Source: Antedon mediterranea (Eukaryota; Echinodermata; Crinoidea; Comatulida; Antedonidae). From it: DNA of 64,000 bases. Location of the stretch: assembly GCF_964355755.1 (NCBI RefSeq), contig NC_092670.1, positions 32,041,795 to 32,105,794 on the forward strand. The letters are read 5' to 3'. The translations under genes and the position numbers were made by a program. Numbering within the stretch: the first letter of the stretch is position 1; each line of letters starts with the position of its first letter. The notes below the pieces were generated by a model that was not told where the DNA came from, did not search any database, and worked only from the letters and a program-made list of their open reading frames with translations. Positions 26,801 through 64,000 of this stretch are shown here, piece by piece.

Positions 26801-29800
26801 CTTTGGTTGTTGCAAAACAGATGCTGGAGATTGCTGTTTATTTGCATTACTATCAGATCTTTGATGAGAAGCATTTCCATCAAATTCATGTTGCAAATTC
26901 TTGTTTTGAAGTTGTGGCACTGTCTGTAATGGTTGTTGTGGTAATGATAATGGAGGTTGGTAGAAATAAACTTGTTCAGGTTTCTCTTTAGGGTTTTGTT
27001 TGGTTGTTGGTTCTTTAACAGCTTCCTGTTTTGAAGTGGTTTGTTGTCCAACTGACTGTTCTGATCCTGTCTGCTTTGTTTGGGGGAGCTTTGGTCCAAT
27101 CAATTTTTCAGGAACTTTAGGTCCAATAAATGCTGGAGTAGGCTGTTGTTTGTCATTTGACTTATCATTTAATTTCTGTGATTGTATTTTTGTTTCACTG
27201 TGTTGTTGAGTTCTGTCTGTTATCTGAGGCTTTGGTTGCTGTACCATAATTGACTCCTGATGCAAGGATTGTTTGTTTTGTGATATTGTATGTTGTTGGT
27301 TAATTTGTTGTGATGGTGTAGGTTGTTGGCTAATTTGTTGTGATGGTGTAGGTTGTTTGTTTGATGATGGAGGTGTTTGGTACCTCTGTTGTGATACTTG
27401 AGGTTGTTGGTTAAATTGTTTTGATGGTGTAGGTTGTTTGTGTGATGGAGGTGTTTGGTACCTCTGTTGTGATACTTGAGGTTGCTGGTAACTCTGCTGT
27501 GGTGTTGGAGTTTGTTTTTTACTCTGTTGTGATACTTGAGGTTGTTGATTAAATTTTTGTGATGGCGTAGGTTGTTTGTTCGATGATGGAGGTGTTTGAT
27601 ACCTCTGTTGTGATACTTGAGGCTGCTGTTTAAATTTTTGTGATGGCATAGGTTGTTTGTTTGATGATGGAGGTGTTTGGTACCTCTGTTGTGGTACTTG
27701 AGTTTGCTGATAACTCTGTTGTGATACTTGAGGTTGTTGGTAACTCTGCTGTGGTGTTGGAGCTTGATTTTTACTCTGTTGTGATAATTGAGGTTGTTGG
27801 TCAAATTGTTGTGATGGAGTTTGTGGTTTCTGCGATGATGGAGGTGTTTGGTACCTCTGTTGTGGTACTTGAGGTTGCTGGTTAAATTGTTGTGATGGCG
27901 TAGGTGGTTTCTGTGATGATAGAGGTGTTTGGTACCTCTGTTGTGGTACTTGAGATTGCTGATAACTCTGTTGTGATATTTGAGGTTGCTGATAACTCTG
28001 TTGCGGTTTTGGAGTTTGTTTGTTACTCTGTTGTGATAATGGGGATTGTTGGTTAAATTGTTGTGATGGCGTAGGTTGTTTGTGTGATGGAGGTGTTTGG
28101 TACCTCTGTTGTGATACTTGAGGTTGCTGATAACTGTGTTGTTGTGTTGGAGTTTGTTGGTAACTCTGTTGTGGAGGTTTTTGAACAACTTTTTCTGCTG
28201 GTAGAGGTTGTTGGTAACTCTGTTGTGATGTTGGAGTTTGTTGGTAACTCTGTTGTGGAGGTTGTTGAACAACCTTTTGTGTTGGTGGAGGTTGTTGGTA
28301 ACTCTGTTGTGATGTTAGAGTTTGTTGGTAACTCTGTTGTGATGTTGGAGTTTGTTGGTAACTCTGTTGTGGAACAACCTTTTGTGTTGGTGGAGGTTGT
28401 TGGTAACTCTGTTGTGATGTTGGAGGTTGTTGGTAACTCTGTTGTGATGTTGGAGTTTGTTGGTAACTCTGTTGTGGAACAACCTTTTGTGTTGGTGGAG
28501 ATTGTTGGTAACTCTGTTGTGATGTTGGCGGTTGCTGATCACTCTTTTCTGTTGGTAGAGGTTGTTGGTAACTCTGTTGTGATGTTGGAGGTTGTTGGTG
28601 ACTTTGTTCTGATGTTGGAGCCTGTTGGTAACTCTGTTGAGATGTTGGAGTTTGTTGGTAATTCTGTTGTGATGTTGGAGTTTGTTGGTAACTTGGTTGT
28701 GATGTTGGAGCTTGCTGGTAACTATGTTGTGATGTTGGAGCTTGCTGGTAACTATGTTGTGATCCTGGAGCTTGTTGGTAACTCTGTTGTGATGTTGGAG
28801 CTTGTTGGTAACTCTGTTGTGATGTCGGAGCTTCTTGGTAACTCTGCTTTGATGTTGGAGGTTGTTGGTAACTCTGTTGTGATTGTAGAGTGTGTTGGTA
28901 ACTCTGTTGTGGAGGTTGTTGAACAACCTTTTGTGTCGTTGGAGGTTGTTGATAACTTTGCTGTGATGTTGGAGCTTGTTGGCAACTCTGTTGAGATAGT
29001 AGAGGTTGTTGGTAATGCTGCTGTGGAGGTTGTTGAACAACATTTTTTGTTGTTGGTGGAGGTTGTTGGTAACTCTGTTGTGATGGTGGAGGTTGTTGGT
29101 AACTCTGTTGTGATGGTGGAGGTTGTTGGTAACTCTGCTGTGGAGGTTGTTGGTAACTCTGCTGTGGAGGTTGTTGGTAACTCTGCTGTGGAGGTTGTTG
29201 GTCAGCGTTTTGTATTGGTGGAGGTTGTTGGTAATGCTGCTGTGATGTTGGAGCTTGCAGGTAATTCTTGGGTACAGGTGGAGTATTATGCTGTTGAGTT
29301 TTATTTTCCTGTTTGGTTTGTTGCTGTTGTCCTCCATACGTATTAGTGTTAGGTTTCTTTCCTGTCTGTAGATTTTTAACTTTTTGACCAACTTTTTTAA
29401 TTTTAAATGGGTCCATCATCAAAAGTGAAGGAGGCTGTGCTGGAGGTGGTGATGGTGGCAGGGGTGGTGGAAGAGGCTCTTCTGCATCTGGTGGAGGAGG
29501 TGGGGGCTGTGAAGCTTCAGGTACAGCAGTTTCAGGAAGTGGTGGTGGAATGTCAGCTACAGCTCCAACATCACCAACCATGTATTGGTTACTTTCTGCC
29601 ACAGTGCCAGAAGTTTGGTCTCCAATTGTTCGCCCACGACCTTGGCCTACAACACTGGTGTAACTTCCAGCACCTCTGCCTCGATTTCCGCCTCTGCCTC
29701 GAATTCCACCTTGATTTTCTCTTCCACGAGGAGCTCCTTTGCCTCTACTACCCTGCCTTCCCCAAGAACTTTCTTGACCACCAAAATTCCACCGGTTTGA

Positions 29801-30604
29801 GCCTTGATCTCTTTGTCCATAAGATGAATAAGACCGCTGTTAAATAGAATAAAGTGATTTTAAACTACAAAAACTGCACTAATAATTATCAAAACAATTA
29901 TCCTGTTAGTACTGTATCATAGAACAGGATTCTTGGCAGCATGTGAAGAATGGTGGTATTGTACTGTAGGTGATCACAATATCAATAATAAATTTCAAAT
30001 GGGCTATGTTCTAAAGTTTGTAACCTCAAAACAACTCAACATGATGTTCTTTCTGAACAACCAAGGTTTGGAAAGATTAGTATCTACCGGAGAGAATTAC
30101 AAATTAAACTGACCATTGAGTATTCTTAGGAATATAAAGCATGGAATATTGATGATTTTGCATTTATTTTGTTGTCAGAGAGTGAGACTAGATCTGAAAT
30201 TTAACTGTTACAATTCATTGAACCAGGAATTAATAGCAATGCCCTACAGACCTACAGTAGATGTTTTGCTACTCATTCGGGCAAACACTGCAGGAAGAAG
30301 AACTTTGGACGTTTAACTAGCCTATTGTATTGTAGGTCATGATGTTGGGAAAAAGGCCCAGTGATATTCAGTAGTTGGTAAAAATATTAATGGCATGGCA
30401 TGATAAATATACAGTAGATGGTTTTACTTGACTATATGGATCCCGATACCCATCATAGCTGGACTGGCTGTATCCTTGATAAGAGGTTCCATAATAATCA
30501 GCCTGGTATGAATCTTGGTAGGAATATTGCAGTGCTTCATTCCTATTTGATGCATACTGTGCAGCCTCCTGCATTAGTTTCTGTATCTCTGATTCATAAT
30601 CCAT
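5775..30604 (-). CDS. Q/P/Y-rich, RGG and two-zinc-finger nuclear protein, 1,700 aa, 12 coding exons
   Basis: Coding exons in order: 30604-30428, 29836-26785, 26659-26505, 26213-26145, 15672-15651, 10830-10732, 10473-10340, 9179-9005, 8197-8149, 7806-6723, 6486-6457, 5831-5775. They sum to 5,103 nt with compatible phases at every junction. The product has a Tyr/Gln-rich N-terminus (1-59), an RG/RGG segment (about 75-135), a Pro-rich linker, Q/P/S/Y repeats (about 250-950), a matrin/U1-type finger C1127-C1130-H1143-H1149, a second finger C1210-C1213-H1225-H1231, a DYPRD-type charged repeat (about 1410-1500) and a terminal KRKR. Fingers of this kind bind RNA or chromatin-associated partners in families such as matrin-3 and ZNF326. 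Together with the RGG part they suggest a nuclear RNA-associated scaffold. That role is inferred; I cannot name the ortholog. The 5' noncoding exon is not located; an acceptor lies just upstream of the ATG. Confidence 0.85.
6017..6392. mobile_element. Probable MITE in the 3' part of the zinc-finger gene (last intron)
   Basis: The segment runs from CTGTATTGAATAAAGG to AATAAATACGG, with TA on each side. It contains an internal inverted repeat in which AATAAACGCCCACCCCC faces GGGGGGGAGTTTATT. Its build resembles the TIR element at 19747-20417. Ends are approximate. Confidence 0.4.
6457..6486 (-). CDS. Exon 11 of the zinc-finger gene
   Basis: A 30-nt exon, PRKRIATKDP, between TTTTCTAG and GTAAGT. 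It is in phase 0 on both sides. PRKR is a basic nuclear-localisation-like patch. Confidence 0.8.
6723..7806 (-). CDS. Exon 10 of the zinc-finger gene: DYPRD/DLRD charged tandem repeat
   Basis: A 1,084-nt exon with 361 whole codons. After SEDSGNMGNIPQRSLPYPEA it has a charged helix (DQRDYYRERLEYEREKALYY). Tandem units near 7 residues follow (DYPRDVRDYPRD, DYPPDVSDYPPD, DLHGDPRYLREYP and similar). It ends with an R/Y/P-rich segment and AFEP before donor GTAAGA. The alternating D/R, Y and P composition is that of an intrinsically disordered polyampholyte. Confidence 0.9.
8149..8197 (-). CDS. Exon 9 of the zinc-finger gene
   Basis: A 49-nt exon, GIQMYRKPPPALMDLE with the first two bases of Ser, between TTATTTCAG and GTAGTG. 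Phases match exons 8 and 10. Confidence 0.85.
8819..8951. mobile_element. MITE of the TCTACACTATCAAACT family (copy a, decayed left end)
   Basis: It shares the core TGTGATCATATACGGACATG, the ATCACTACCATATTT pair and the right end ATAGTGTAGACAAAGCTT with the copies listed further on. It lies in an intron of the zinc-finger gene. Confidence 0.7.
9005..9179 (-). CDS. Exon 8 of the zinc-finger gene
   Basis: A 175-nt exon encoding TKTKKDFSKNFVKMCKESD and on to GEMERLHGRGRIRVIVPKEH, ending in phase 1 before GTTAGT. The first part is basic and helical; the second resembles a short beta segment. It is followed by exon 9. Confidence 0.85.
9478..9787 (-). mobile_element. 5S-rRNA-headed SINE (copy 1)
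   Basis: Read on the minus strand, the first ~115 bases (9787-9671) resemble 5S rRNA with AAGTTAAGCAACG-like box A and GGATGGGAGACCG box C; these are normally the internal Pol III promoter. A body follows containing GGTTATCTGTACCATAC, then a tail with GGTCCTAAATGATCAAC and AAATATGGTTAAAAAA. It is not a functional 5S gene because several conserved positions differ. Confidence 0.75.
10093..10165 (+). mobile_element. SINE 3' tail fragment with (ATT)n
   Basis: GCGCTCTATAAATCTTATTA followed by ATT repeats, the same tail type as the SINE at 3627-3905. No promoter head is seen nearby. Confidence 0.5.
10340..10473 (-). CDS. Exon 7 of the zinc-finger gene: zinc finger 2
   Basis: The exon starts after TTTCCACCAG with GMEHVIERRMNVPDTPF and carries C1210-x2-C1213-x11-H1225-x5-H1231, with the typical HLLGNRH core and a FIYL end. 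Donor GTAAGTATG is near-perfect. The upstream phase (1) and downstream phase (0) both fit. Confidence 0.9.
10732..10830 (-). CDS. Exon 6 of the zinc-finger gene
   Basis: A 99-nt exon after CTTTTAG, encoding KEWIADITTKDVETDLP and on to DECKQPLV, ending with the first base of a Gly codon before GTATGT. It leads into finger 2. No separate domain is recognised. Confidence 0.85.
11724..12165 (+). repeat. Diverged direct repeat pair
   Basis: The segment near 11724-11765 (GGTAATAAATGCAAACATTA ... TTGTTTAACTATT) recurs near 12113-12155 with changes. Both lie in the large intron of the zinc-finger gene and are of unknown origin. Confidence 0.35.
13219..13254 (+). repeat. G-rich tract, quadruplex candidate
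   Basis: Runs of 4-6 G separated by single A residues (GGGGAGGGGGAGGGGGGAGG and onward). It meets the pattern for an intramolecular G-quadruplex with one-base loops on the + strand, which is the template-opposite strand of the zinc-finger gene. Confidence 0.7.
14316..14628. mobile_element. Fold-back element / MITE
   Basis: ATTTACACTAGGAGTATAAT with TTTTTCTTACAGAAAACA on the left is mirrored by TTTTCTGTAAGAAAAAAGCA and CCTAGTGTAAAT on the right. The spacer is about 170 bp and carries no coding capacity. Confidence 0.6.
15651..15672 (-). CDS. Exon 5 of the zinc-finger gene: 22-nt microexon
   Basis: AAACTAGAACACTATCAGAA plus two A lies between TTTTGCAG and donor GTAAGT. It encodes KLEHYQK and the first base of N. 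It is the only piece seen that links exon 4 (phase 0 end, ...SSRHIK) to the exon at 10830 (needs phase 1, ...KEWIAD). The joined text SSRHIKKLEHYQKNKEW is helical and reads as a natural extension of the finger. It lies between introns of 10.5 and 4.8 kb. Confidence 0.75.
15885..16120 (+). mobile_element. Degenerate tRNA-like SINE
   Basis: It has a recognisable B-box (GGTTCAAATCC) near 15915 and a body similar in order to the SINE at 3627, but the A-box is poor. Confidence 0.4.
16273..16406. mobile_element. MITE of the TCTACACTATCAAACT family (copy b)
   Basis: It begins CTCTGTCTACACTATCAAAC, carries the core TGTGATGTGCCTATACATGG, and ends ACTAGTTTGATAGTGTATAT. The termini are inverted repeats. 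Confidence 0.8.
17852..18172. mobile_element. Element with a long near-perfect hairpin
   Basis: The left part (ATATAACACCTAAATAAATT ... GTGGGTCACATGGCGTGCAA) recurs at 31211-31300 and, more decayed, near 15162. From 17993 the arm AATGGTACAAATAATGGCAC ... GTTATATCAACTCGGC folds onto GCC(T)CGTTGATATAAC ... GTGCCATTATTTGTACCATT, ending near 18170. The loop is only about 6 bases. No protein is encoded. Confidence 0.65.
18173..19592. other. Intronic stretch without recognisable content
   Basis: Inside the 10.5-kb intron of the zinc-finger gene. Apart from poly-A/T runs I see no exon, RNA gene or clear repeat. Confidence 0.5.
19593..21112. repeat. Local segmental duplication, one copy carrying a transposon
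   Basis: Copy 1 (19593-19745 plus 20470-20620) and copy 2 (20759-21112) share CTTTCACCGGCCGCCG, the CATGTCTCTCTTTCGATCTC stretch, TGTAAATAAAGT, and CGGTGGGATTTACTCTTTCG to CTAGTGCGCTA. Copy 1 is split by the TIR element at 19747-20417; copy 2 is not. Confidence 0.7.
19747..20417. mobile_element. Non-autonomous TIR DNA transposon, 671 bp
   Basis: The terminal inverted repeats are CCGTACTGACGCGGGTATAA with GCCCA beyond, and the exact reverse complement at the right end. TA lies on both sides. A second inverted pair (AAGCCCACCCCC / GGGGGGTGGGCTT) is nested near the left end. No transposase frame is seen. TA flanks fit Tc1/mariner-like or related elements; the family is not settled. Confidence 0.75.
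21113..21990 (+). repeat. Tandem repeat, about 170-bp period, five units
   Basis: Each unit holds TATCGCGTATGTTTACC, GGCGGAAAAAGT, GGCTACGATCG, GCTAGCGCGCTATGAAGTG, TTTCCGGCCAACTA and a short hairpin CCTACTGATGAGTAGG. The hairpin occurs near 21137, 21314, 21441, 21611 and 21783. Short open frames across it are by-products of the repeat. It lies in an intron of the zinc-finger gene. Confidence 0.75.
22117..22249. mobile_element. Hairpin MITE (GTTCCCACTAG termini), copy 1
   Basis: GTGGTTCCCACTAGCGACGC ... GACGTAACGCAA faces TTGCGTTACGTTCTAGTGGG plus AACCAAGC. The middle contains GACCAATCACAAGCGATGG. A second copy lies at 43518-43699. Confidence 0.75.
23787..23993 (+). repeat. Left LTR
   Basis: 207 bp, containing a TATA-like GATATAAAGG and an AATAAAAC polyadenylation-like motif in LTR order. 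Confidence 0.8.
24379..24507 (+). pseudogene. Small frame inside the LTR element, remnant of a pol C-terminus
   Basis: A 42-codon frame beginning MATSKEENLPNN and ending with STRCGRVVKLPKRFLE. That ending resembles the short basic tail that closes many Ty3/Gypsy-type polyproteins (R-x-GR-x-x-K-x-P-x-R-F). It looks like the start and end of a polyprotein joined by a large internal deletion. I infer this from the tail only. Confidence 0.45.
25345..25546 (+). repeat. Right LTR
   Basis: 202 bp, differing from the left LTR by a few substitutions and a small deletion near CACTA(CTGTA)TACA, so the insertion is fairly young. Confidence 0.8.
26145..26213 (-). CDS. Exon 4 of the zinc-finger gene: rest of zinc finger 1
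   Basis: A 23-codon exon, DCGHCQNAYLNPMEHEMSSR then HIK. Joined to the previous exon it gives C-x2-C-x12-H-x5-H (C1127, C1130, H1143, H1149), which is the matrin/U1-type spacing. Donor GTAAGA follows AAG in phase 0. Confidence 0.85.
26505..26659 (-). CDS. Exon 3 of the zinc-finger gene: polyproline linker and first half of finger 1
   Basis: The exon starts after ATAATTTTGCAG with ATCCTCAAACC, restoring phase 1 as D-PQTLDNILKK. It has seven prolines in a row and an acidic stretch, and ends KNFFCT before donor GTAGGT. The Cys in its last residues is the first ligand of the zinc finger finished by the next exon. An AG further upstream (26730-26731) would bring an immediate TGA and is not the productive acceptor. 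Confidence 0.8.
26785..29836 (-). CDS. Exon 2 of the zinc-finger gene: RGG segment plus giant Q/P/S/Y repeat
   Basis: A 3,052-nt exon (residues 60-1076 and the first base of 1077). It starts after a TTTAACAG acceptor with SYSSYGQRDQG, followed by an RGG stretch (GGIRGRGGNRGRGAGSY) and a proline-rich run. About 700 residues follow of imperfect units such as QQSYQQPPTS, with variants containing QKVVQQPP, QRYQTPPSS and SKQTPTPQQ. After the repeats comes a less ordered Q-rich segment ending KSSWQT, then donor GTAATC. Other frames over this exon stay open for hundreds of codons (for example NKLQHHNRVTNNL on the same strand) only because the repeats are regular. This frame alone joins the flanking exons. 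Confidence 0.9.
30428..30604 (-). CDS. Exon 1 (coding) of the zinc-finger gene: Tyr/Gln-rich N-terminus
   Basis: ATG at 30604-30602 opens a 59-residue exon starting MDYESEIQKLMQEAAQ and ending DGYRDPYSQ, followed by donor GTAAAAC. A TTTGTAG acceptor lies about 10 bases 5' of the ATG, so the transcript must have an upstream noncoding exon. The exon holds many Y residues in YxQ/SY contexts, like the low-complexity domains of FET-type RNA-binding proteins. It ends in phase 0 and continues at 29836. Confidence 0.8.
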
Positions 30605-39593: not shown

Positions 39594-39708
39594 TTATATT
39601 GAAATTCCATTTGGTATGTTATCGGGATGGAGATTGTTGTAGGGAAATTCTCTGGTAGCATTTCTTTTATCAATCGTAGTTGCTGCACTTCTGAGGTCCC
39701 TTCGGAAT
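39594..39708 (-). CDS. Lipoxygenase last exon with C-terminal isoleucine
   Basis: After CTTTTAG it encodes FRRDLRSAATTIDKRN and ends PDNIPNGISI plus TAA. The terminal Ile carboxylate is the fifth iron ligand in active LOXs and is preserved. It is joined in phase 2 to the exon ending at 42420 across a 2.7-kb intron. Confidence 0.9.
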
Positions 39709-42700
39709 CTAAAAGAACAAAAGGTGTTTACCATTATGGAAACTTTTCGACATGGCACCATGGCAAGAACATTGCTCACGCATGGGTAATTACCAATCGA
39801 AATTGTGATAGGTTTCGCTACTTTAGAAGTGGGGAACGATCATTTCTCTTTTAAGTATGCCCTCACATTTGATATCACACGCCATGCAATCGAAGCCTGA
39901 ATCTAAGAAAACAGAAATGGTTCCATTCAAGACTATTTTATTACGCACGGAATTGAGGTTATAGTATGGAGAGCTGAAACATTTTTGTTTAAAGTGTATG
40001 GGCTTTGATTGTTGAGTAAAGATAGCGTACATGAGCTCGATTCCAGGGGTGGCGCCAGGATCTTCCCGACGCGGGGGCTACATTCCCCGACGAGGGGGCT
40101 ATGCGAGCGAAGCGAGCATCACAAGGCTGGGGGACAGGGGGCCGCCAAGGGCCCCCGGTGGGGGTCCAGGGGGAGAAGCCCCGGGAGCAACGCGTTCTAG
40201 CGTCATTTGAGGTCATTTTAACCAGATTTAGTGTAGCCATTTTTTCCATTTTTTATAATGCATAAATAAAATACTGCGTGCAAAAAAACGATGCGCGATG
40301 ACTGTTTCAATCCATATTTTTTCAATTTAAAAAATAAAAGTTCAAAGAAAATTTAGAAAAATAGAGTTGGAGGTCCTGGAAATTGGACTTATTATACTTC
40401 AAAACATGAAACAAAATATATAAGTCCCTATCATGGTTGTGACTGAGCTAAGAAATGTTTGAAAAATAGAGATGTTAGGTCCCGGAAAATGCACTTCTTG
40501 TACTTCGAAATATGACCAGCTTTATTGTTGGGGCTGAGCTAAGAAAATGTTTAAAACTAGAGCTGCAGGTCTTCAAAAAATTGCATTTTATACTTTGGAA
40601 ACATCAGGCCCAGAGGCTTAAAAAAACGCAAGCGTAGACCTTTTTCAGTCGGGGAAATAAGTGTATTCCTCCCAAGTGTATGCCTGCGTACCATCTGGAC
40701 TTCCGAGTGGTGAGAAATTCATGACATACAGCACATTGAAAATTTAATAACTTAGCTATAATAAGATGTTGGCTAAGCGAAAATGTTATGTTTTTTTGTT
40801 TAGTAATGGATGAAATATTTATTCTAGGTGCCCCACGGTACAGAAGGTTACTTGTAAATTAAAAAATTGGTGAACATACGAACAATTAACATAATTCGTT
40901 TATTGCTGTAGTAGTGTATACGTCGACACAGTACACGACGTAACCGTCGGTAAACTTCGCCTGGAAAATAACTACAGTACACATTTTGGTCCCTGGATGG
41001 AACATGATATCACCAGGGAGTTGTTCTAATAACAACTCCCTGATATCACGACCCAACGTTGAACGATTCGTACAAAGGGATACCGCCAGACAAGTGCGTA
41101 CCTATAGCTATTGTTTAGTAGTAAGTTAGATCGCTGGCAATAATGAATGCATATAAAGTTCATAATATCACTCTGACGTACTCTCACGGTCAATGAAACG
41201 TCGAGGTTTTCTAGGCGCTGAAAGCTACGAAGTGAACGCGAACGAATTATATTCCCCGACAAAAAGTACCCGAACCGTCGGTAAACTTCGCCTGGAAAAT
41301 AACTACATTACACATTTTGGTCCCTGGATGGAACTTGATATCACGCGTCTCGACCCAACGTTGAACGATTCGTACAAAGGGATACCGCCAGACAAGTGCG
41401 TACCTAGCTAATGTTTAGTAGTAAGTTAGATCGCTGGCAATAATGAATGCATATAAATTGCATAATAGCACTCTGACGTACTCTCACGGTCAATGAGACG
41501 TCGCGGTTTTCTAGGCGCTGAAGCTACCAAGTGAACGCGAACGTTTTTTACTGTATATTATATTCCCCGACAAAAAGTACCCGTGTTCCCTTCGGTAACC
41601 GTCGGTAAACTTCGCCTGGAAAATAACTACATTACACATTTTGGTCCCTGGATGGAACATGATATCACGCGTCTCGACCCAACGGTGAACGATTCGTACA
41701 AAGGGATACCGCCAAACAAGTGCGTACTAGCTATTGTTTAGTAGTTAGATCTCTGGCAATAATGAATGCATAAAAGTTCCCTCTGACGTACTCTCACGGT
41801 CAATGGAACGTCGTGGTTTTCTAGGCGCTGAAGCTATATGAAGTGAACGCGAACGTTTTTTACTGTATGTTATATTCCCCGACAAAAAGTACCCGTGTTC
41901 CCCGACGGGGGGGCTAGGCTCCCCGACGAGGGGGCTAGAGCCCCCGTAGCCCCCCCGCTGGCGCCACCACTGCTCGATTCACTATAAAATGGTATAATGA
42001 GCCCTCATTGTAGACCTGCTCAACGTTAACACATTGCGTAAGCGCAACGCAAGTGATTTGTTGACCAATCACAAGCGATGGATTACTGTCAATGGTCAAA
42101 TTACGTATGTGTGTGCCTACGACGTCCCTTCGTTGAGTCAAAGCGGCGGAATCAAGCATAAAGCTACATTCATTTTATTTGTTTTACAGACGAAAGATGG
42201 TACCGTTCAATTCTTTGATGTTCTATTTTATACAGCGCCGTCTTCCGCCGTTCCATGAAACGGATCAAGTATGAATTTAGCTTTATAAGCATTTTTTTCT
42301 TAGCTTAGGCTTATTTATTCTTCAGTTTTTATTGCAAGAAAATTAGAATAGAAACCAGAAATATTAGTAATGTTGTTATTTAGATAAATGTTTAGGATGA
42401 ATTAAATTGCTGTTCTTACTGTTGTAAAGCTTCGCAACATTCTTCACTGTATAACCACGTGCTTTCAAATTCACCAAGTTTACTTTTACTTATTAAACTC
42501 CATAGTTTGACAACAGCAAGCATTCCAAGCATCTTGTTCTTTTCTGGTAATGCCGCCATTAAATCAGATTCTGTCCGTTCAGACTATAGATGAAAATAAT
42601 AATTATTTATTTGAGTGAATCGTCGGCAGACGTAGGCCTATTTTATTTTATTCAATACACAGCCAAGATATACAAACAACTTCCGACAGGCAGAGAGTAA

Positions 42701-45700
42701 GCCTACCCTGTACAAAACTGTTGACACCAAACAGCTTTTACCATTTTAGATCTAAAAACGGTTACAATTGAACATTGAAATTTGGATGTTTGAAATAAAT
42801 CTCTCTTTGTGACGTCTAGGCCTACTCGTCATCATCCATTTTATAACTTCAAAACAAGGATATTTATACAGTAAGCCTACCTTGTCCATAGGCGGATCTC
42901 CCCTCAGCAGGGTTGGGTAGGCTGGTGGATAGGCGTATGATTCGTAAATGTTATGTTGTGATGATGCATATCCAGCACTAGCTATGTAGATTATCACTGT
43001 GAACATTTCAATAACCTGTTCACGAGATTCGAACCCATCATTTCCTGGTAAACCCTGTTAAGAAAATATTACCGTTTTAGTACAATGAGTGAATTTACTA
43101 CAAAACGATATCCTCGTCATCTAGCTTGAACGGGTTAATACCATTGATGAGGACCACCTCTCAACCCTCCCGATAATAGAAAAAAGTCAGATTGTTCGAG
43201 GAGAGTCATCTCACGCTCTACCGCTAAAATTCAGATTCTCCCAATGGAAAAATAAAAAATAAAACAAAACTTCAGATTATAATTGTAACTACTGTACTCT
43301 AGATAGAGAAACAGAATACACGTATCAGTCCCTAAGATATTTATAATCAATTCATGCATTGTTTAATCAGAGAAGAGTAAAATTACGCTTGTACACTTGC
43401 CCAGGTTTCATAAGTGAATAAGTTGGCACCATATTCTCCGGGTTCGCACGTCTGACATACGTACCCATGTTTACGCATTGTCCCGTGTATAATAAATAAC
43501 AAATACTGTATTTAGTAAAGTGTGGTTCCCACTAGCGACGCAACACAAAGACGTAACGCAACGCAAGTGAATTGACCAATCACAAGCGATGGCTTATTCG
43601 CTTGCGATAGCTAACTGTCTATAACTTCGCTTGTCATTGGTTAAAACGCTTGCGTTGCGTTTACGTCTTTGCGTTACGTTCTAATGGAAACCAAGCTTTA
43701 GAAGCAACAAACCATTCAGATTTATAAAGGAATATATCATTTAGGCCTACAATAACATTATTTTCTTTACCGGTATCGCACATCCACCAGCATCTACGTT
43801 CTTCGACAGAGTGCTTCGAAAGCCATGCAATTCAAAGTCATTTTCAACCTGATCGTCTGTCTCTAAAATATGATAAAATCACGTATATAGGCTTAATATT
43901 CGTTAAGAATTACTTTTTGATGATCAAAAACATATTTGAAAAACAAGTTTTACGAAATTGTTCTCAACGTGCACGAAACTGTTTTGAACAACTTTTCAAG
44001 AAGAAAATGTAAGTAAGAAATCCTTAAATAAAACCTAAAGAACTTTTAAAACTCTAACGACATTCTTTTCTTTTCCTTTAAGCTACCGGTACAATGTTTA
44101 TCACTCCCAAATGTTAATGGTATATAGGCTTTTAAACATATTTAAAATTAATTGAATTACCAAACAATGGAAATACTATAAGAATACGCACAAACCAATG
44201 CTGTCGATTTGCGCGAATAAATTGCCAGTGGAAAACAGGCTTAAGGTTGTCAATTACTATTGGCCTTTACGTTTTGCCAGATATAAAAAACAGCTACGCT
44301 CAAGAATAGTGTGAACGGCCGGTCATGATATAGCCTACTAATAGAGGTGGACTAAATCAAGGCTTACTGTAATACGCGTTGACAACAGTCGCTACATATT
44401 TCTTAATGGCGTTCCATATGAGTAGACCGTCGTCCCTGTAGTGAAAATTTGGCAGGACGTCCTCATCAAACACTCCGCGTGCTTTCAAGTTTGTAGGGAG
44501 TACTTCTGTGGTTTGAACTGTTCGAGTTTTACAATCGTTTCGGACAATTTTGAAGGAGCCTTCGCAGCCCATCTTGAAGAAGGAATCGAATGTACCATTA
44601 CTTCCAATCAGTTTGTTAATAACTTGGCTGAATGTAAAGATACAAAATAAATCTCAAACAATTTGTTACAGGAACTTATCTTTTGAGTAAAAACTATAAA
44701 GTCAGGTTTGCGGTGTATAGGTTCACACCATGTGTTTCCAAAAGGAAGTTTGGAATGTTTCGACGTTTCCGTTGATATTAATTACATAACCACGAAGAGT
44801 AAAGGCACACACATGGTATACCGCAAACCTGGCTTTACGAATGGTTATACGACATGTAAAATAAATAACTAGTAGGCCTAGGCCATAAAGCCAAATTTGC
44901 AGTACACTCTTTTCAAAAAGGAAGTCACAGTATGTGTGTGTACCGCAAACCCGGATTTAATATTATAACATTGCTCATCATGCAACATTAGATTCTTAAA
45001 GTACGTGTTTTCCAAATTGTGGCTTAAATAATGAGCGGATAACACCATGAAAGAGTGATTTAACTTCACTTTTTCTTGTCAGCACTGTAGAGCCACACGA
45101 ATTCAGAAATCAACTTTAGTTCCCATGTCAAAATAAAACCTCTTTTAAAAGACAATAGATGAACAATATTGTCTATTGTGTTATTTATTTAGCGCCGCGG
45201 CAAGAAGAAAGTTTCCATTATAAGGACAAGATATCTTTCGTATGAGAAAATACACCATCTCGTTCGTCTTTCTTGGCTGTCAATTTTATAACAATAACAA
45301 AAAAGATGTTTGTGTCAAACACCAGTAAGATGTTTGTATCAAACACCCGTAGGCCTACATACCTATTGGTAGCCATTACATCCTGTAAATGAGGAGCAAG
45401 CAACCTGTGGAGAGGATGAGAAAGAGAAAGATGTCTGTGCATCGTAACAGCCACTGACTCCAAGATGAAGTAGATAAAGCAGTAAGTCGAAGACTGGTGG
45501 TAAGAAACGTCTGCTAAATTGAACCACATCTTGGCTAACTTCCATGTGTATTCCGGGTCATTCGGCAAGAAAACCTGTCAATTCGATAGAATAATGTATT
45601 AATATTCTATTTATTTTGTTACTATTTTTTATTTTTTATAACCAAAATAGTTTGACTAACAAATTTTTTTTCATTTCTTTTCGCTTTATTTTGTAAAATT

Positions 45701-46270
45701 TCCCGGACTTTTTTTCTATTTTTATCTAAGTTTCTGAAATTGAAAACAATGGAAAACCAGTCTGGTGAATTACTGTGGTATGACAAATAGTTAGAAATGT
45801 TAGAATTTCTTCCTATATTTCACGTTTTGATCATAATTGTCTTTATCTTCCTGTGGAAAATATTACATTTTGTTTCACTAGACTAATTATAATTTCCATA
45901 GTTGTGGACGAATAAAGTTATTTTCTTAAACACTACCAAAACCAAAATGTTGAAATGTACCGGAGGTTTAACAGCAGCATGCGGAGGCGCCCTCGTTAGT
46001 TGAATTGCGATTGGTCGAAGTTTTTTATCGCCTCCAAGGAAATATAATGCAAACGGACATGGTAACTGAAAGATAATAAATTCAAAATGCTGGTACAGTA
46101 TTGTCTATTTTTATGGTAGATGTAAATTAGACTTTATACACAGTAGCTAAATTCTGTGTATCTAGGCACATTTATGATAAATGTGACCTTGTTTTTACCT
46201 AAACCTTAAGCTCTGCTTACACTCTCATCTAGTAATACTATTATAGTATAGTGATATGACGTCATCGTGT

Positions 46271-46307
<37 letters not shown>

Positions 46308-49300
46308 ACATACAAGTTTGGTAGTGTAAACAGAGCTTTAATTAGACTTTATACACAGTAGCTAAATTATTCTAGTGTAGCTAAGCACATTATTATGTAC
46401 GAGATTATTTTTACCCAAACCTTAATCTAACCTCAAAATAATTCTTATAATTTAGTTGGAACATATGGCTTTGTATATATTCCTATTGTACATGGAGATC
46501 CGCTACAGCAGTACAGAGGTTTTATTGTTGTATTAGAATTATATGTGAATGAATGCAGAGTGTAATTTACTAGATCTAAAAAAACATGTATTTACTCACA
46601 TATTTAATATCAACCATCACGTGATAGTCTATAACAAAAATACGTTTTTTTGTTAAAGCTTCTTCAAATTTTAACCCTTCAAGAAACGGCTCAACCATAT
46701 CTTCTGTGACGTAAAACCTGCAAAAAACATAACAAAAGAAAGGACTAAGATCAAGGAATGATTGTATGGTGTATAATATTAGAATTGTTCGCTTATTTAT
46801 CCATGGATTAACGTATTGACAAAAGTTACGCATACAAACTTATGAAATATTAACCAGCTTTTTAATTTCAACTGGGCATATAAGCTTCGGATTAAGTTAA
46901 CTGCTACTGAAACAATTTCTTAAAAGCCGTGTAAGTAGAATTTGTTTACTAACGAACCACTCGAAATCTATTTTTTAAAAGATAAATCTACAATTAATGC
47001 CGCTAATCTCAAACAAAAACGTTCACGTTCAGGATTTGACATGTTTTTTAAAGAAGCTTTAATATTAACTAGGCCCAAATTTTCGACAAACTAAAAACGG
47101 TGATATTTGACCATCATTTTGTTACGTTATTTGTTGTAAATGTTTGAACTTTGCGTCAGGATGGTCATTGAGAAGTATGTACTTGTTATAAAGTACAAAT
47201 TACGTCAGGGTAGGGCATCATCAATATTTGACCAATTACGTTATTTGTTAGTACGTTGTATTAAGACAGTGATCAATTGCAATCCTGTATGCGTTTACAT
47301 AGTTAACAAGGCCATATACATGGCTGCAGCGCAGTCGCGTGCGCAAATTTGAGTTAGTGTTTACCAACCAACCGACCGACATAGTGACTGTGGACTGTGG
47401 ACTCGCGTTACACGCGACTAAAAATAAATAACAAATCGTAAGAAATAGAGAGAACGTGAAAACTAACTAGTGTAGATTAATACATCAAATGTGACAAGCT
47501 ATTATGAAGCAATATCATAAAATGTACATACCCTTCTGGTAATTTTTCACAGAGTTTAATTTGAGTTGGGTTACATCCATTGAGGGCATTGTTTCCAAAT
47601 ACTTCATCGCTGTCCCACGTGTCGATAGACTGTTGAAATAACATAACATTGTATATAACAATCTTGGCCTCTTCGTTCACGAAAATTCCAAAAAGAATAT
47701 AAACTAGATTGACCACAAATTAGTGCCACTGAATAATCACCATACAGTCCATATTGTATACTCTAGATTTGGTTCATTTACTTTATTCCTGTTGTTTATA
47801 CCGAATAACACCAAGGCTAGGCATATTTATTTATCTAGCTGCACCATTCACCTTTCAATCGATGACACTGGCAAACACAACATGTCAGTAGGCTATATGT
47901 AATATTTAACGATTCAAAATATTTACAAGCAATTACAATACAATATACATGGCAATCAGGGAGTAATTTATTTCATAAAATAACATTTTTTTTACCAGAT
48001 AAATAAATATCAAAATATAAATGACTGCAATCAATTTGTACAATCATGAAATTAGAAATAATCTTTGGCGATCAATATATAGGCTTATCCATTTTAACAA
48101 CATTGTTTTAGAATTTTTTTATATAGATGCAGTGCACATCATAACAAGAAAGGACAGGAATGATAGAACAAATTAATAACAAGATGGTCGTTACCTTATA
48201 TTTCATTTACAATGCAAATCCAAACAAGACAAAGATTTTAGTTGGTCTTCTTGTCAAATAAGTAAATAAATGTAACTATTATTATTATTTTACATTTTGA
48301 CAATAAAGTATGTAAAAAACCAGTAGGCCTAATTTCATTCTCTTTTGATCTAAATAAGACAATTCGTTCTTAATTGAAAACCTTGGTAAAAAACGTATTC
48401 TGTCCGAAAAAGTGCGCAGAGCTCTCCAAAAAGAAAAACATTATGTAGGATTGTTGGTGATTATACGAAACATACAAAGAGAAGCTAGATATTCTGACGA
48501 CTGCTCTTGATGGTGATTTTGGTATATACTAATACGTTTCTGACAAAAAGGAACGGGAGACATACAACTTACCGATGGCCGATGAAAAGTGTACTTATAA
48601 ATTGTTTCAAAGTCAGCAAGAGATTTGAAGTTTCTAGCAGTAGCTATTGCGATTAATTCAGAGTTGATTCGAAGTTTACGGGCGGTTGATGTAAACGATT
48701 TCTAACAGAAACAAACAAATACACACACTATTTAATTTGATATACAAGAGATACTCAACAGTTCTTTTCAGAAGTAAGGTAGTGTACCGCGAACTTTAAA
48801 TCAACATATCAACATCCTGATGTTGTCTGGTTAAAAATTTAATGAAATCCTAAATTCACTGAATTGACAGATAAGATTAATTAAGGCTTTAATTGGTTTC
48901 AATTGAGGCGTTCTTCTAAATAGGACTCTTTGGTGGGCTTCTTTATCTTAAATTGATTTCAATATTACATTTTTTAAAGATTACTTTTGCAAACCAAATT
49001 GATGGGTTTCTTTTTTTGGTCTACATATTATGTATAATGCTCTATAAAAACAGTTTCTGAAAGGGGATACATTTTCAAGAATTATAAATATTTACCAGTT
49101 GATCCGACCGAAACTTTTCGTCACTGGGAAGTGTTCGTACCTGAAAAATAATTTACATTACTAATTCAATTCAATTGAATTAGCCACTAATCCGCATCAA
49201 TTGCAAATGCAAATTAATCTAAATTAAATGCATAATAATTACTTAATTAATTATTTCATTACTTGTTGGAGTATCGGTAAATTAGGCCTATACATAACAT

Positions 49301-51408
49301 TATAAAGTAAAAGTATTTATTTAAATGTTTAATTACGTCAATGAATAATAATACTTTTTGCTATTTTTAAATACATGTACATGCATGTGTACAATTATTC
49401 ATTTGAATGTTATGTTTTTAAATAGGTAACGCTTTTAATGTTTTAATTATTACATTTTTAATATTCTAAACAGATTTTCTCAATTTCCGAAATCAATAAA
49501 TTTTACTGATTACCGATTATCGGAAATTTCATTACCATGGAGACAAGATCGATACAGAATGTATATGTTCATATAGGCCTACCTGTACAGGTAAACCAGG
49601 AATCTTCTGCCAATATTTGTAAACGTTTCGTTTTCCCAAGAGTTCCTCTTTACGCTGTCTATGCTCGGAGTCAAGCTGAGGTAATTGACAGTCATATCGA
49701 CTCCATCTGAAAAATAATCACAGATAATAATAATAACGCTATGGTGTTTGAGCATGCATAGTCCGAGTTTCTAAATACCCATTTTTCAGCCGTAGTAAAC
49801 AGTAAGCTACCGTACGGTAACTGTTTCCTAATGATTCTGTTCTCTTGTATATAACTGCCTAAAGAAGGAGCGGCGTGAAAAGAATAAAAATTATAATGAA
49901 TAAAAGAGACCGGAGGTAAATTGAAGATCACTGCATTTTTCAGAAAAAAAAAACATGTTACCAAGGAAATTATAAATGTTCATTGATTCAAGGTCAAATT
50001 TTAGAATTGTATTTTTCCATACCGATTTCTATGTTGCAACTTTTATGAAGTAAGCCTCTCCAGATAGTTTAATTAATGTTCAATTCAATTCTTACGACTA
50101 AATGAACTAACTTTATTGTGAAAGTATTAGGATATGTTGTAGCTTTACCTTTTGCAAGGTGTCTCCAAAAAAAAGAAGAAAGAAAGAATATGCCTAGTGA
50201 AAGTAAGACTATAATATACCGGTACAAGAGCTAATTAAGACATATTGCTTGTTTAATCGTTATTTATTTGGTGTTGTATATACTGTATATATATAAATTG
50301 TATTCACGAGACTGATGTGGAGTACAACTTGTTTAATCAATATTGATTGTTTTTACACAAGTTCGTGATATTACAAAAAAAATCAACAAAAATACGACAA
50401 AAAAAAAAGAAAAATTTGAAATATTGTAAGACTATTAAAACGTGTTTTGTTTGATGTTTTTATCTGTGTTTATTTTAATTGCTATATAATATATTTGTTC
50501 ACTCATAAGCCAGAATTGACTGTTTTTGTTATAAACAAAATGATTACTAGTATTTTAAAACTTGAATACAATTGGTTAAAAATGTCAGTCTTTGTGATCT
50601 TTTAGTAAATGTTTAGATAAAATCTGTAATTTAGAAGAGGGAGCACGTTCCAAAGTGGGCCAAGTACGCGTTGCCTGGAGTGCTAATCAAACTTTGTAGA
50701 GTTGAAAAATGGGTCGCCGTACTTATTTTTCCCACTGTGCCTTATTAGACTATTATATAATCCATTATATGGTGGTTATTGTTTGTTTAAGTTATCAAAT
50801 AATAACAGTTTATGAACTTTTACTATAAAACAGGGATGTTTACATTTGACAAAGGATCGACATACATTCCTAACGTATCGTAAGATTCCTACTCTATTGT
50901 ATAATTGGTCTCTGACGTTTTATTACCGTCTGTTATTGTATTGTATTACCGTAGCAGACACGGGTGCGGTTTACTTGCTTATCTACCACAGAACAGTAGC
51001 GTAAACCTTGACTGTACTATATACGTTAGGCCTACTGAATTCTCACCTTGTTTTAGTTCCGCCTTTAATCCACCTGTTGATGGGGAATTCATAAAATTTT
51101 CCGTTTACATGATCCGTAACGATAATGAACTCGACGAGCCAGTTATCCCAAAACAGCCACCTGTCTCGCCAAAGTTCAATCTTCACGATTTCACCAAAGT
51201 CACGGAGATTCTTAATCGGGAATCGATCATTATGGCCTGGTTCAAAATCATCTCTAAACCGAACGTCGAGTTTGTAATCTTTGGATCGTTTACCAGTATT
51301 GTTCAAAAACGCTATGAAAATATTCCCGTCTGTACCGGCTCCTTTGCGATCAGATGTTTTGACAATGACCTCGTAGTTTTCTGTAGTGTTTGACGAAGAG
51401 TTTCCCAT
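39594..51408 (-). CDS. PLAT-domain lipoxygenase-like protein, 665 aa, 13 exons; iron site lost
   Basis: Exons: 51408-51047, 49706-49583, 49140-49096, 48701-48573, 47629-47532, 46717-46600, 46065-45961, 45574-45363, 44627-44368, 43862-43771, 43054-42881, 42583-42420, 39708-39594; total 1,998 nt, all phases consistent. The N-terminal PLAT/C2-like barrel (about 10-120) is followed by the lipoxygenase domain with ALNGCNP, YRDDGLLIW and SREQ landmarks and a C-terminal DNIPNGISI. Length and order match animal 5-LOX-type enzymes (about 670 aa), which oxygenate arachidonate using non-haem iron. Human 5-LOX binds iron by His367, His372, His550, Asn554 and the C-terminal Ile. Here H353 and I665 remain, but the others are Y358, Y544 and Q548. 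Iron binding, hence dioxygenase activity, is unlikely. The reading frame and splice sites are intact, so a pseudoenzyme is favoured over a dead gene. Confidence 0.92.
40044..41972. mobile_element. Non-autonomous hAT-type DNA transposon, 1,929 bp
   Basis: The termini CAGGGGTGGCGCCAG and CTGGCGCCACCACTG are inverted repeats. An 8-bp target duplication CTCGATTC lies at 40036-40043 and 41973-41980. Eight-base duplications and CAG(G/T)G ends define hAT elements. GC-rich blocks near both ends repeat CCCCGACGAGGGGGCTA. No transposase frame is seen. It sits in the last intron of the lipoxygenase gene. Confidence 0.9.
40942..41880 (+). repeat. Three tandem units of about 325 bp inside the hAT element
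   Basis: Each unit starts near CCGTCGGTAAACTTCGCCTG (40945, 41275, 41600) and contains CATTTTGGTCCCTGGATGGA, CGACCCAACGTTGAACGATT and CTCTGACGTACTCTCACGGT. The units differ by point changes and small indels. Confidence 0.8.
42881..43054 (-). CDS. Lipoxygenase exon 11: second iron-ligand helix, His and Asn replaced
   Basis: GLPGNDGFESREQVIEMF and VIIYIASAGYASSQHNIYES align with the family segment SAQH-x3-N. Tyr544 stands for the His ligand and Gln548 for the Asn ligand; a His follows at 549. The exon has 58 codons, in phase 0 on both sides, between TTAACAG and GTAGGC. Confidence 0.9.
43518..43699. mobile_element. Hairpin MITE (GTTCCCACTAG termini), copy 2
   Basis: Same ends and the same GACCAATCACAAGCGATGG core as 22117-22249, with about 45 extra bases in the middle. 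It lies in a lipoxygenase intron. Confidence 0.75.
44698..44836. mobile_element. Fold-back MITE (CAGGTTTGCGGT ends)
   Basis: AAAGTCAGGTTTGCGGTGTA at the left faces ACCGCAAACCTGGCTTT at the right, with CACACCATGTG / CACATGGTATA inside. A related shorter copy lies at 44884-44961, and fragments occur near 1050, 8705 and 48776. Confidence 0.65.
44884..44961. mobile_element. Short related fold-back MITE
   Basis: TAAAGCCAAATTTGCAGTAC and GTACCGCAAACCCGGATTTA are imperfect inverted ends around an AAAAAGGAAGT core shared with the neighbouring element. Confidence 0.55.
45363..45574 (-). CDS. Lipoxygenase exon 8: first iron-ligand helix, second His replaced
   Basis: The exon starts VFLPNDPEYTWKLAKMW and continues DVSYHQSSTYCFIYF. 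In active animal LOXs this helix reads H-x4-H with both His on iron; here the second is Tyr (residue 358; codon TAC on the minus strand). The conserved HP and N (SHPLHRLLAPH ... ATN) after it are kept. It ends AAT AG before GTATGT. Confidence 0.9.
46207..46340. mobile_element. MITE of the TCTACACTATCAAACT family (copy c) with (TA)n expansion
   Basis: AAGCTCTGCTTACACTCTCA at the left, GGTAGTGTAAACAGAGCTTT at the right. The core CATATATGG has expanded to a run of about 15 TA units (46273-46302). Confidence 0.75.
51047..51408 (-). CDS. Lipoxygenase exon 1: N-terminus and PLAT domain
   Basis: ATG at 51408 gives MGNSSSNTTENYEVIVKTSD, followed by GAGTDGNIFIAFLNNTGK and the W/F-rich strands typical of PLAT (KIELWRDRWLFWDNWLVEF, then FPINRWIKGG). 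The frame ends K-T-(AG) before donor GTGAGA. Most animal LOXs start directly with the first PLAT strand; here about ten extra residues carry MGxxxS, the N-myristoylation pattern. PLAT domains bind Ca2+ and membranes. Confidence 0.9.
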
Positions 51409-54108: not shown

Positions 54109-54222
54109 TAAGCTCTGTTTACACTACCAAACTATGTGCCAAAAATAATGCGATGTGCCTATATATGGACACGATGATGTCATCATATTTGGACACATGC
54201 CACTAGTGTAGACAGAGCTTTA
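54109..54222. mobile_element. MITE of the TCTACACTATCAAACT family (copy d)
   Basis: TAAGCTCTGTTTACACTACC at the left and AGTGTAGACAGAGCTTTA at the right, with core GATGTGCCTATATATGGACA. Confidence 0.8.
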
Positions 54223-54230
54223 GATTGATT

Positions 54231-54640
54231 GATCAAGTTTTTTTATTAGCACATCCAAAACCCCCATTAAAAAAAATGTGATGTGCCCATGGACATGATG
54301 ATGTCATCATATTTGTACACATCATACTAGTGTAAACAGAGCTTTAAAATGATCAAGTTTTTTTATTAGCACATCCAAAACCCCCCATTAAAAAAAAATG
54401 TGATGTGCCCATGGACATGATGATGTCATCATATTTGGATACATCACACTAGTGAAAACAGAGCTTTAAAATGATCAAGTTTTTTTATTAGCACATCCAA
54501 AACCCCCATTAAAAAAAAATTGGATGTGCCCATATATGGACACGATGATGTCATCATATTTGGACACATCCCACTAGTGTAGACAGAGCTTTAGATTGAT
54601 CGATCAAGTTTTTGTATTAGTACATCCAAAATCCCCGTTT
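54231..54640 (+). repeat. Tandem array derived from the same MITE, period about 122 bp
   Basis: Units begin GATCAAGTTTTTTTATTAGC at 54231, 54351, 54473 and 54602 (partial). Each contains CACATCCAAAACCCCC, TGTGATGTGCCCATGGACAT and GTAAACAGAGCTTT. The right half of the MITE has been amplified together with adjoining sequence. Confidence 0.75.
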
Positions 54641-61900: not shown

Positions 61901-64000
61901 AGGTAGAACCTTTAGCTTGACACAATTCTTCTCATTAACCACAACAGCATGTTCTGGCTGGATACTATATAAGCAATGTCATTTTTTTTGTTATGTAATG
62001 CGTCCGTCTATGTTTTATGTTTAGACTACAAAGACAAGCCACTTTGGCTTCTGTGTATCTAACCCATAAAACTGTTAAATGTTGAATAAATATTGTTTAA
62101 TTCAGATATAAATAACACTATTGATATGTAGGATGATTCCATCATTGATCATCACCTTTATAACACACCTGATTGTATTATTGCAATTTGATTGTTCAAT
62201 TACGCATCACGTGTCATTTGAAATTAGCCCTATCTAACAAAAAACTGATATCTAAAAGTGATAATTAAGCGCTCGAATGTACAGGTTCCTGTAACCATTT
62301 GACGTTGTTGACTGATCGCATTCAGAAATAACTTGTTGTACGCTTTTTGTTGCTCTACTCCGCATCTAAATTTGGAGCACTGCCTTTTTATTGGCTTAGC
62401 TTGTCGGCCTAGCATTCGTCAATGATTCATGATGGATAACATTTAAAAAAGTAGGTGTGTTTAAAAAAAAATAATGCATTTTGTATTTGTATACACTTAT
62501 TCTTATGTAGATGTGGAAACAACGGCTTGATTATGGATGAGAAATGGATACAGACATACAGATTATGATCACAATTACAATGATACATAGATAACGATTT
62601 CACATATATTACATTTCACAATTATGATATTATCCTCCTCACCTAAGCCCAGAGAGTACAATATCAGGCATTGCCTTAGCCTTGTCATTGCCAATCTTGG
62701 AAACACCCTCTTTTGCAAAGTGTATTACAATACCAGTAAGTGCCGGATCCTCATTCAAGTTCCAAAAATGTGGTATTACTTTCATCTCTTCTTGTTTTTG
62801 TCGCTCTTGCTGGAGTTTTTCCTACAATTGAACACAACTTGCCATTCAGTATTCTATGATCGACTATATAATGTTTTTTTTGCTCATAAAATATGTGTAT
62901 ATTAGCCTTTAGAATATGATATACAGTAGTGCAGTAGCATTGACTTCTGAGAAAATTCCTTTGTTTTTCAAAATCATCTCACAGGAAAAAATACAGCATT
63001 AACTTCTGCTAATTTCTGTTTCTATGGATTTTTTTATTACCATATTTACAGCATTGACTTCTGAAAGATGTTCTGTTCCTATGATTTTTTTTAACTTACC
63101 ATATTTGCAGCATTTACTTCTGAGAGTCTCTGTTCCCATGTCTTTTTAGCAACTTCCATTTCTTCTTCATTCTGTTTTAGCTGCATCAACAGATCCTGTT
63201 TCATCTGATCAACCTCTATAATTTGCAATAAAAGTGAATACATTTTTAGACCATTTTTATTAGTATTGCTGCAATAAATTTCAACATTTTAGGCTAAACT
63301 GATTGAACATGCTCATTTAAAAACAGATTTTAGGGGATTTTGCAATAAATATTTCATAAATAATAATGATATAAACAATAATTTTTTTTTTAATGACCAG
63401 TTCATGTACTTCCTTGGTGTTGCCACATATTATCATCATCTACATTCATTTTACGTTATTTAAATTAATCTCTGTCTACACTATCAAACTTTATGTGACA
63501 AAAAAATGTGATGTGCCCATATATGGACATGATGATGTGATATCACTACTATATTTGGGCATATCACTACCATATTTGGACACATCACATTTTTTTGTCA
63601 AACTAGTTTGATAGTGTAGACAGAGCTTTATGTCCGTCTGTGTAAATATCTTTTACGTCACTTCTAAAATCTTATCCTTTTCAATAATTCTTGTTGGTCT
63701 TTCAACGCTGTGAGACATCAGTAAAAAGCGCTTTATAAAAGTTTATTATTATTATTAATGATCATGTGCATAAAAATACAACCAATGAATAAGAACTGAG
63801 AGGAATAAAAATAAACATTTTCTTATACCTGCTTCAGTGAATCCTTGCTGTATTGTTTCTGTCGTACCCCCTCCGCCTTGCTTGCTCTTTTCAAGTGCTT
63901 CTATCAATCTGGCATTCTCCTCTTTCAATTCTCTTATCAATTTATCTGTAGGGCTTTCATTCACTATAGCCTTCGTTTTAATTGCTTTTGCTCGGTCCGC
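55708..64000 (-). CDS. Kinesin-3 family protein, KIF28/KLP-6-like, 3' part (620 aa, 13 exons)
   Basis: In-window exons: 64000-63829 (runs off the edge), 63215-63100, 62821-62643, 61964-61836, 61317-61151, 60489-60341, 59875-59738, 58891-58670, 57965-57897, 57513-57391, 57042-56917, 56113-56036, 55902-55708; 1,863 nt in phase with no stop before TAA/TGA at the end. The first residues ADRAKAIKTKAIVNESP and DKLIRELKEE are the kinesin-3 neck region just after the motor. Then come coiled coils, an FHA domain (HFWNLNEDPALTG to IMFGSKHLFIFHHP), a helical region (DLIEMVPMVNEVNAMSDEL), FLNRRYLMQEMYQ, a C2-like beta segment (ENDPFWEPADTEIIVGNAHI) and a final coiled coil. Kinesin-3 motors carry vesicles along microtubules toward the plus end; KLP-6 acts in cilia. 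The motor domain lies beyond the window. KIF28 is preferred over KIF1 by the compact C-terminal order without a PH domain. Confidence 0.88.
56195..56345. mobile_element. MITE of the TCTACACTATCAAACT family (copy f)
   Basis: AAAGCTCTACACTATCGCAA at the left, TTTGATAGTGTAGACAGAGC at the right, with the paired ATGGTAGTGATATG motif. It is intronic in the kinesin gene. Confidence 0.8.
56731..56838. mobile_element. MITE of the TCTACACTATCAAACT family (copy g, right end missing)
   Basis: AAGCTCTGTCTACACTATCA at the left and the core through GGGCACATCACATTTTCTTT. The right inverted end is absent. Confidence 0.75.
57178..57211 (+). repeat. Short tandem repeat (CATATCCATT)n
   Basis: Three near-perfect 10-bp units in a kinesin intron. 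Confidence 0.6.
60593..60757. mobile_element. MITE of the TCTACACTATCAAACT family (copy h)
   Basis: AAGCTCTATCTACACTATCA at the left, TTTGATAGTGTAGACAGAGC at the right, both halves of the core present. Confidence 0.8.
60885..61035. mobile_element. MITE of the TCTACACTATCAAACT family (copy i)
   Basis: A decayed left end (TAAGCCTTGTCTATGTGACA), an intact core, and right end TTTTGATAGTGTAGACAGAG. Confidence 0.75.
61151..62821 (-). CDS. Kinesin FHA-domain exons
   Basis: Exons 62821-62643, 61964-61836 and 61317-61151 (phases 0/2, 2/2, 2/1) encode one FHA domain. The strands are around VIPHFWNLNEDPALTGIVIH, VSKIGND, EHAVVVNEKNCVKLKVLP, TLVNGKDVDGEIELHHNDR and IMFGSKHLFIFHHP. FHA domains bind phosphothreonine or, in kinesin-3, help dimerise and hold the inhibited state. 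The usual arginine/serine phosphate-binding positions are not obviously kept (SKIGND instead of a TRIG-type loop). Confidence 0.8.
63467..63630. mobile_element. MITE of the TCTACACTATCAAACT family (copy j)
   Basis: CTCTGTCTACACTATCAAAC at the left, GTTTGATAGTGTAGACAGAG at the right. It is one of the best preserved copies and lies between kinesin exons 1 and 2 of the window. Confidence 0.85.
63700..63757 (+). mobile_element. SINE tail fragment with (ATT)n
   Basis: AAAAAGCGCTTTATAAAAGT followed by TTATTATTATTATTA, the same 3' end type as at 10093 and 3880. Confidence 0.5.

Follow-up and report, generated by a model that had tools for sequence, protein, structure and literature searches.

Our results suggested that the minus-strand lipoxygenase (LOX) gene in a 64,000-nucleotide stretch of the Antedon mediterranea genome, referred to here as the window, is probably a maintained, membrane-directed LOX pseudoenzyme. 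The window corresponds to C1:32041795-32105794 of a 354-Mb assembly, in which 11 contigs measure 22-41 Mb each and seven others are small. A sequence-only reading of this DNA had proposed a maintained non-enzymatic LOX, and this proposal is now well supported by the intact open reading frame, the focal character of the iron-site loss, the conservation of the remainder of the protein, the rejection of neutral evolution in a codon model and a set of drift simulations. The roles suggested in that reading, a lipid sensor or a regulator of an active paralog, are more tentative. The novelty would be a pseudoenzyme inside a well-known family, one in which the loss of the metal site appears unusually complete and focal. 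In the open-licence literature on LOXs lacking iron ligands, LOX pseudoenzymes and invertebrate LOXs, as represented by titles and abstract openings, none of the matches listed reported a natural LOX gene that is intact yet altered in this way, although this does not prove that none has been published.

We modelled the gene independently by spliced alignment. The model had the same span as the gene described in the sequence-only reading, whose 13 exons were said to join without a stop at canonical splice sites: all 12 introns are GT-AG, and the joined frame is free of stops and frameshifts. The start codon at 51408 is the first Met downstream of an in-frame stop and has G at both -3 and +4, while a polyadenylation-like hexamer first occurs 454 bases 3' of the stop codon. 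In the Pfam search, the encoded protein matched both the PLAT domain PF01477 (64.3 bits, cut-off 23) and the lipoxygenase domain PF00305 (193.2 bits, cut-off 23.6). The gene and its exons are as follows, in window positions:

39594-51408, minus strand: LOX-fold gene of 13 exons and 665 codons, from the spliced alignment and the PF01477 and PF00305 matches; stop codon TAA at 39594-39596
51047-51408, minus strand: exon 1, encoding the MGNSSS N-terminus (a putative N-myristoylation motif) and the PLAT domain, in which the GAGTD and DDFE loops are retained
49583-49706, minus strand: exon 2
49096-49140, minus strand: exon 3
48573-48701, minus strand: exon 4
47532-47629, minus strand: exon 5
46600-46717, minus strand: exon 6
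45961-46065, minus strand: exon 7
45363-45574, minus strand: exon 8, first iron-ligand helix; His353 is kept, Tyr358 and Tyr362 replace His, and one residue between them is deleted
44368-44627, minus strand: exon 9, Val400 at the Ala/Gly (Coffa) position
43771-43862, minus strand: exon 10
42881-43054, minus strand: exon 11, second iron-ligand helix, where His and Asn have given way to Tyr544 and Gln548
42420-42583, minus strand: exon 12
39597-39708, minus strand: exon 13, C-terminus IPNGISI with Ile665 as the last residue

Next, we aligned the window protein with solved animal LOXs and with 11 paralogs from the same genome. The residues in the iron-ligand columns are His353 (codon at 45499-45497), Tyr358 (45484-45482), Tyr544 (42970-42968), Gln548 (42958-42956) and the C-terminal Ile665 (39599-39597). 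Tyr358, Tyr544 and Gln548 stand at the positions that we take to be those of His372, His550 and Asn554 in human 5-LOX. The alignment thus reproduced the earlier assignment, in which these three residues replace ligands while His353 and Ile665 stay. Catalytic LOXs use three His ligands, and just one of the three is retained here. The fourth side-chain position, which is Asn, His or Ser in catalytic enzymes, is occupied by Gln548. The C-terminal carboxylate ligand is in place, as Ile665 immediately precedes the TAA. Note that the claim of three replaced ligands out of five holds in full for the two essential His. The Asn position is dispensable, since human ALOX15B binds its iron without the help of the residue at the Asn554 position, which is a non-ligand Ser557 (PMC11593649); for this reason the argument rests on the loss of the two His, and the Asn-to-Gln change alone means little.

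The alterations extend beyond the ligands themselves. In the first iron helix, Tyr has likewise replaced the conserved His that follows, at position 362, and one residue between Tyr358 and Tyr362 (as aligned) has been deleted; coral 8R-LOX and all 11 paralogs have Leu there. Of the three conserved His positions in this helix, the first two (353 and 358) are still five residues apart, the distance between the second and the third is shortened from five to four, and the 544-548 spacing in the other helix is unaltered. Moreover, the adjoining conserved Thr has become Ile, and the Phe beside the Asn position has become His. At the Coffa position, which is Ala in most S-LOXs and Gly in most R-LOXs (PMC6612559), the window gene has Val400; Ala or Gly is found there in 11 of 11 paralogs and in the coral enzyme. 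All three lost invariant His were changed to Tyr, an outcome with a chance of about 0.013 under neutral missense change (assumed base composition and kappa). His to Tyr is the likeliest single missense change in this same neutral model (0.234). The triple outcome fits a scenario in which side chains were selected to fill or bridge an empty site.

The relatives of the gene in the same genome provided the frame for these comparisons. Besides those in the window, Pfam and protein searches located LOX exons in a C1 cluster at 35.79-35.94 Mb and at two further sites, C1:7.68 Mb and C8:17.46 Mb, giving a count of at least 12 LOX genes, as genome searches score the best candidates only. Nine of them (A to I) lie in tandem on one strand at C1:35794570-35937116, and these, together with J and K, are the 11 paralogs that we modelled. 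There are 12 introns (13 exons) in the window gene and in J, K and I, and 10 (11 exons) in A to H. For J and K, the models varied with the query around exon 3: K was left without one intron when J served as query, and J was frameshifted and scored lower when K did, so the models used for both are those without these effects. An extra 5' exon of gene B, obtained with D as query, was doubtful, and the B model without it was kept. At the four side-chain ligand columns, His, His, His and Asn are present in all 11 paralogs and in coral 8R-LOX, versus His, Tyr, Tyr and Gln in the window gene, and the C-terminal residue is Ile in every LOX compared except paralog K. In the latter, the C-terminal codon (C8:17459031-17459033) encodes Val, and the four side-chain ligand positions are intact. 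Judged by their residues, the paralogs are presumably catalytically active. In gene C, whose first coding exon lies at C1:35844005-35844487, a single in-frame TAG was seen at residue 78, the frame being otherwise open; this gene is possibly a young pseudogene.

The nearest paralog is J (C1:7678596-7688760), which resembles the window gene in its 50.7% identity, its 13-exon structure and its MGxxxS start, and differs from it in having the three His and the Asn, as well as Gly at the Coffa position. When coral 8R-LOX was used as the root of the tree, J and K grouped with the window gene in a clade with a support of 90, and the internal order of this clade had a support of 35. The window gene is therefore a long-standing paralog rather than a recent duplicate.

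The MGxxxS start shared by J and the window gene (51391-51408 in the latter) is found in 12 of the 12 modelled LOX genes, in each case at the most upstream Met of the open stretch, positions 3 to 5 being variable; in the 11 paralogs, up to 50 codons upstream were examined for the start. Met-Gly-x-x-x-Ser is the classical N-myristoylation motif, and A, B, G and H additionally have Cys3 (MGC). We consider the MGxxxS start to be a putative signal for N-myristoylation or dual acylation, and if this start is used, it would represent an extra anchoring mode for the LOX family of this animal.

We then looked at where in the protein the changes fell. Columns were called invariant when they were so in the other 11 genes and in coral 8R-LOX. 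Within 10 columns of a ligand, the window gene had changed 8 of 12 such columns, compared with 3 of the 77 lying further away (p = 1e-6 in a one-sided Fisher test), and the contrast persisted at all six distances tried, from 5 to 20 columns (p at most 1.2e-5). The controls at 10 columns gave 0/4 near and 4/78 far for both J and I, and 1/5 near and 5/79 far for K. When invariance was defined with the paralogs only, and broader helix windows were used, the window gene still had 8/16 near and 8/107 far (p = 9.5e-5), versus 0/8 and 9/108 for each of J and I.

Selection on the gene was then analysed through the ratio of non-synonymous to synonymous rates (omega, or dN/dS), whose computation along the lineage the sequence-only reading had proposed as a check. 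In a codon model of 644 columns, an omega of 1 on the window branch was rejected, with twice the log-likelihood difference (2dlnL) being 137.05, a value unchanged on refitting with more iterations. The one-ratio omega was 0.137, and fixing omega at 0.5 on the window branch was better than fixing it at 1 by 34.7. The point estimate for the branch, 0.0054, was discarded as meaningless because the branch length sits at the optimiser's bound. In gene C, omega was 0.28, against 0.12 in the rest, which indicates that the codon method responds to relaxation.

Neutral drift did not reproduce the pattern of changes. Starting from the coding sequence of J, 300 simulations were run, each being stopped once changes had hit 7 of the 16 invariant sites near the ligands. 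By then, a mean of 41.6 of the 107 far sites had also changed (minimum 10), versus 8 observed, and a mean of 23.8 nonsense mutations had accumulated (minimum 4), versus none observed, so that 0 of 300 runs fit. With the narrower 10-column sets, the simulated far changes were 39.2 of 77, versus 3 observed, with 36.5 nonsense mutations and again 0 of 300 runs fitting. Drift at the iron site would imply that selection was acting on the remainder of the gene meanwhile; if the iron-site changes arose by selection instead, the gene was functional anyway.

Several points weigh against a maintained pseudoenzyme and limit how far these tests can be pressed. Synonymous change is saturated on the window branch, and omega likewise falls to near zero when J, K or I is freed singly; the low omega is shared with these genes and is therefore not special to the window gene, and just the rejection of omega = 1 was used. 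The branch test pools the parts of the branch before and after the loss of the iron site. The simulations take J as the ancestor and assume that the near-ligand changes proceeded at neutral speed; when they were stopped at four near-ligand changes, 3 of 300 runs gave three or fewer far changes, none of them free of nonsense mutations. Finally, the focal contrast is weaker with paralogs only and broader windows, a setting in which K showed a similar tendency (4/12 versus 15/114, p = 0.083), and at 15-20 columns paralog I had 2/9 versus 2/73 (p = 0.058).

One alternative is that activity was lost recently and that the gene is decaying, a stop simply not having been acquired yet. The ligand loss is known from one genome, and LOX genes seem to die in this one, as cluster gene C, with its in-frame TAG and raised omega, illustrates. 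We regard recent decay as unlikely, given that several changes and a deletion fell at the iron site and few elsewhere, and given that no neutral run fit the data.

Another possibility could be that the site was not lost but rebuilt. Transferrin binds iron through a His, two Tyr and a carboxylate, and Tyr is a competent Fe(III) ligand; His353, Tyr358, Tyr544 and the Ile665 carboxylate might thus form a transferrin-like ferric site serving metal binding, redox chemistry or sensing. Both essential His did become Tyr, the two intra-helix spacings were left as they were, and the remaining His and the C-terminal Ile were retained, all in line with this idea. Against it, His to Tyr is the likeliest missense change and also occurred at the non-ligand position 362, and the longer Tyr may merely plug the cavity. 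A rebuilt site is thus rather improbable in our view. An elaboration of it, in which a transferrin-like ferric site in a myristoylated, membrane-anchored LOX would make an iron or redox sensor working beside active anchored paralogs, seems to us a slender prospect.

An artefact, that is a sequencing error, a misassembly or alternative exons providing the missing ligands, appears very improbable. The sequence does rest on a single assembly, but the changes are spread over two exons, and among them are a codon altered at more than one base and a deletion that preserves the frame, which is otherwise intact. An ungapped six-frame scan of the window with the J core segments as queries revealed no further copy of the exon 8 or exon 11 core, the best non-self scores being 27 and 30, versus 77 and 121 for the real exons. 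Moreover, in the genome search (67 of 108 candidates scored), the matches at the locus were 12 of the 13 exons of the gene and nothing else. There is equally little to be said for an oxygenase or hydroperoxide isomerase still working with an unusual iron ligation: two ligands remain and the Asn position is dispensable in ALOX15B (PMC11593649), but the three His are kept in all 11 paralogs and in coral 8R-LOX, and the Coffa position is altered too.

Returning to the maintained pseudoenzyme, a possible mechanism can be outlined. From the chemistry of the family, we infer that the window protein would be unable to hold iron in the LOX manner or to oxygenate fatty acids. The first iron helix of active LOXs carries a pi-helical bulge at the iron, and the one-residue deletion may relax this strained helix into an ordinary alpha-helix, with the Tyr side chains occupying the vacated iron site. 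The word lipoxygenase was absent among the matches listed for the pi-helix literature. N-myristoylation and the PLAT domain might then bring the protein to membranes, where it could act without catalysis, most likely by pairing or competing with active LOX paralogs, or else by holding fatty acids; these last two steps are the least certain. A membrane-directed non-catalytic partner or competitor of the paralogs, or a fatty-acid holder, would be the most economical role.

How does this protein compare with known systems? Its best solved relatives are the coral AOS-LOX proteins, with coral 8R-LOX (2fnq) matching at E 6.4e-91. Human 5-LOX (3o8y) matched at E 1.4e-86, and coral 11R-LOX (3vf1) is also among the closest. 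With these proteins the window protein shares the PLAT and LOX domains, over nearly the full length, and the C-terminal Ile. Unlike these solved animal LOXs, it is without the two essential His, the accessory Asn and the neighbouring His, and its first iron helix is one residue shorter.

A functional precedent may be provided by the human splice form 5-LO-Delta4, which is described as iron-free, inactive and stable, and as stimulating wild-type 5-LO at low protein concentrations; heterodimerisation is given by the authors as a possible mode (PMC5113960). This form arises by exon skipping of an active gene, whereas here we deal with a separate gene whose iron site is altered by substitutions and a one-residue deletion. 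Outside the family, the PHLPP2 pseudophosphatase belongs to a metal-dependent family, has lost its activity and is kept as a gene, a membrane scaffolding role having been proposed for it (PMC12002173). Its fold is unrelated, and it keeps one zinc. If the window gene is indeed constrained without its iron centre, the LOX fold would have a function separable from oxygenation, and the gene could serve as a natural, gene-encoded test of non-catalytic LOX partner roles, alongside splice forms such as 5-LO-Delta4.

Other features were observed in the window. Intron 12 of the LOX gene holds 2.7 copies of a 324-base unit (41049-41902), and a 130-base query from this repeat matched 40 places in the genome at 98-100% identity, the window's own included (best of 1102 candidates). 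An open frame of 1031 codons on the minus strand (26747-29839) had no Pfam match and lies in a region of strong GC skew, in which tandem repeats with periods of 24-252 bases span about 27278-29268. Tandem arrays of 171-base and 122-base units are located at 21346-21948 and 54165-54636, respectively. Finally, at the end of the window (63758-64000, minus strand), there is a weak match to the kinesin-associated family PF16183 (23.8 bits, under the cut-off of 29.5), which is perhaps part of a neighbouring kinesin gene.

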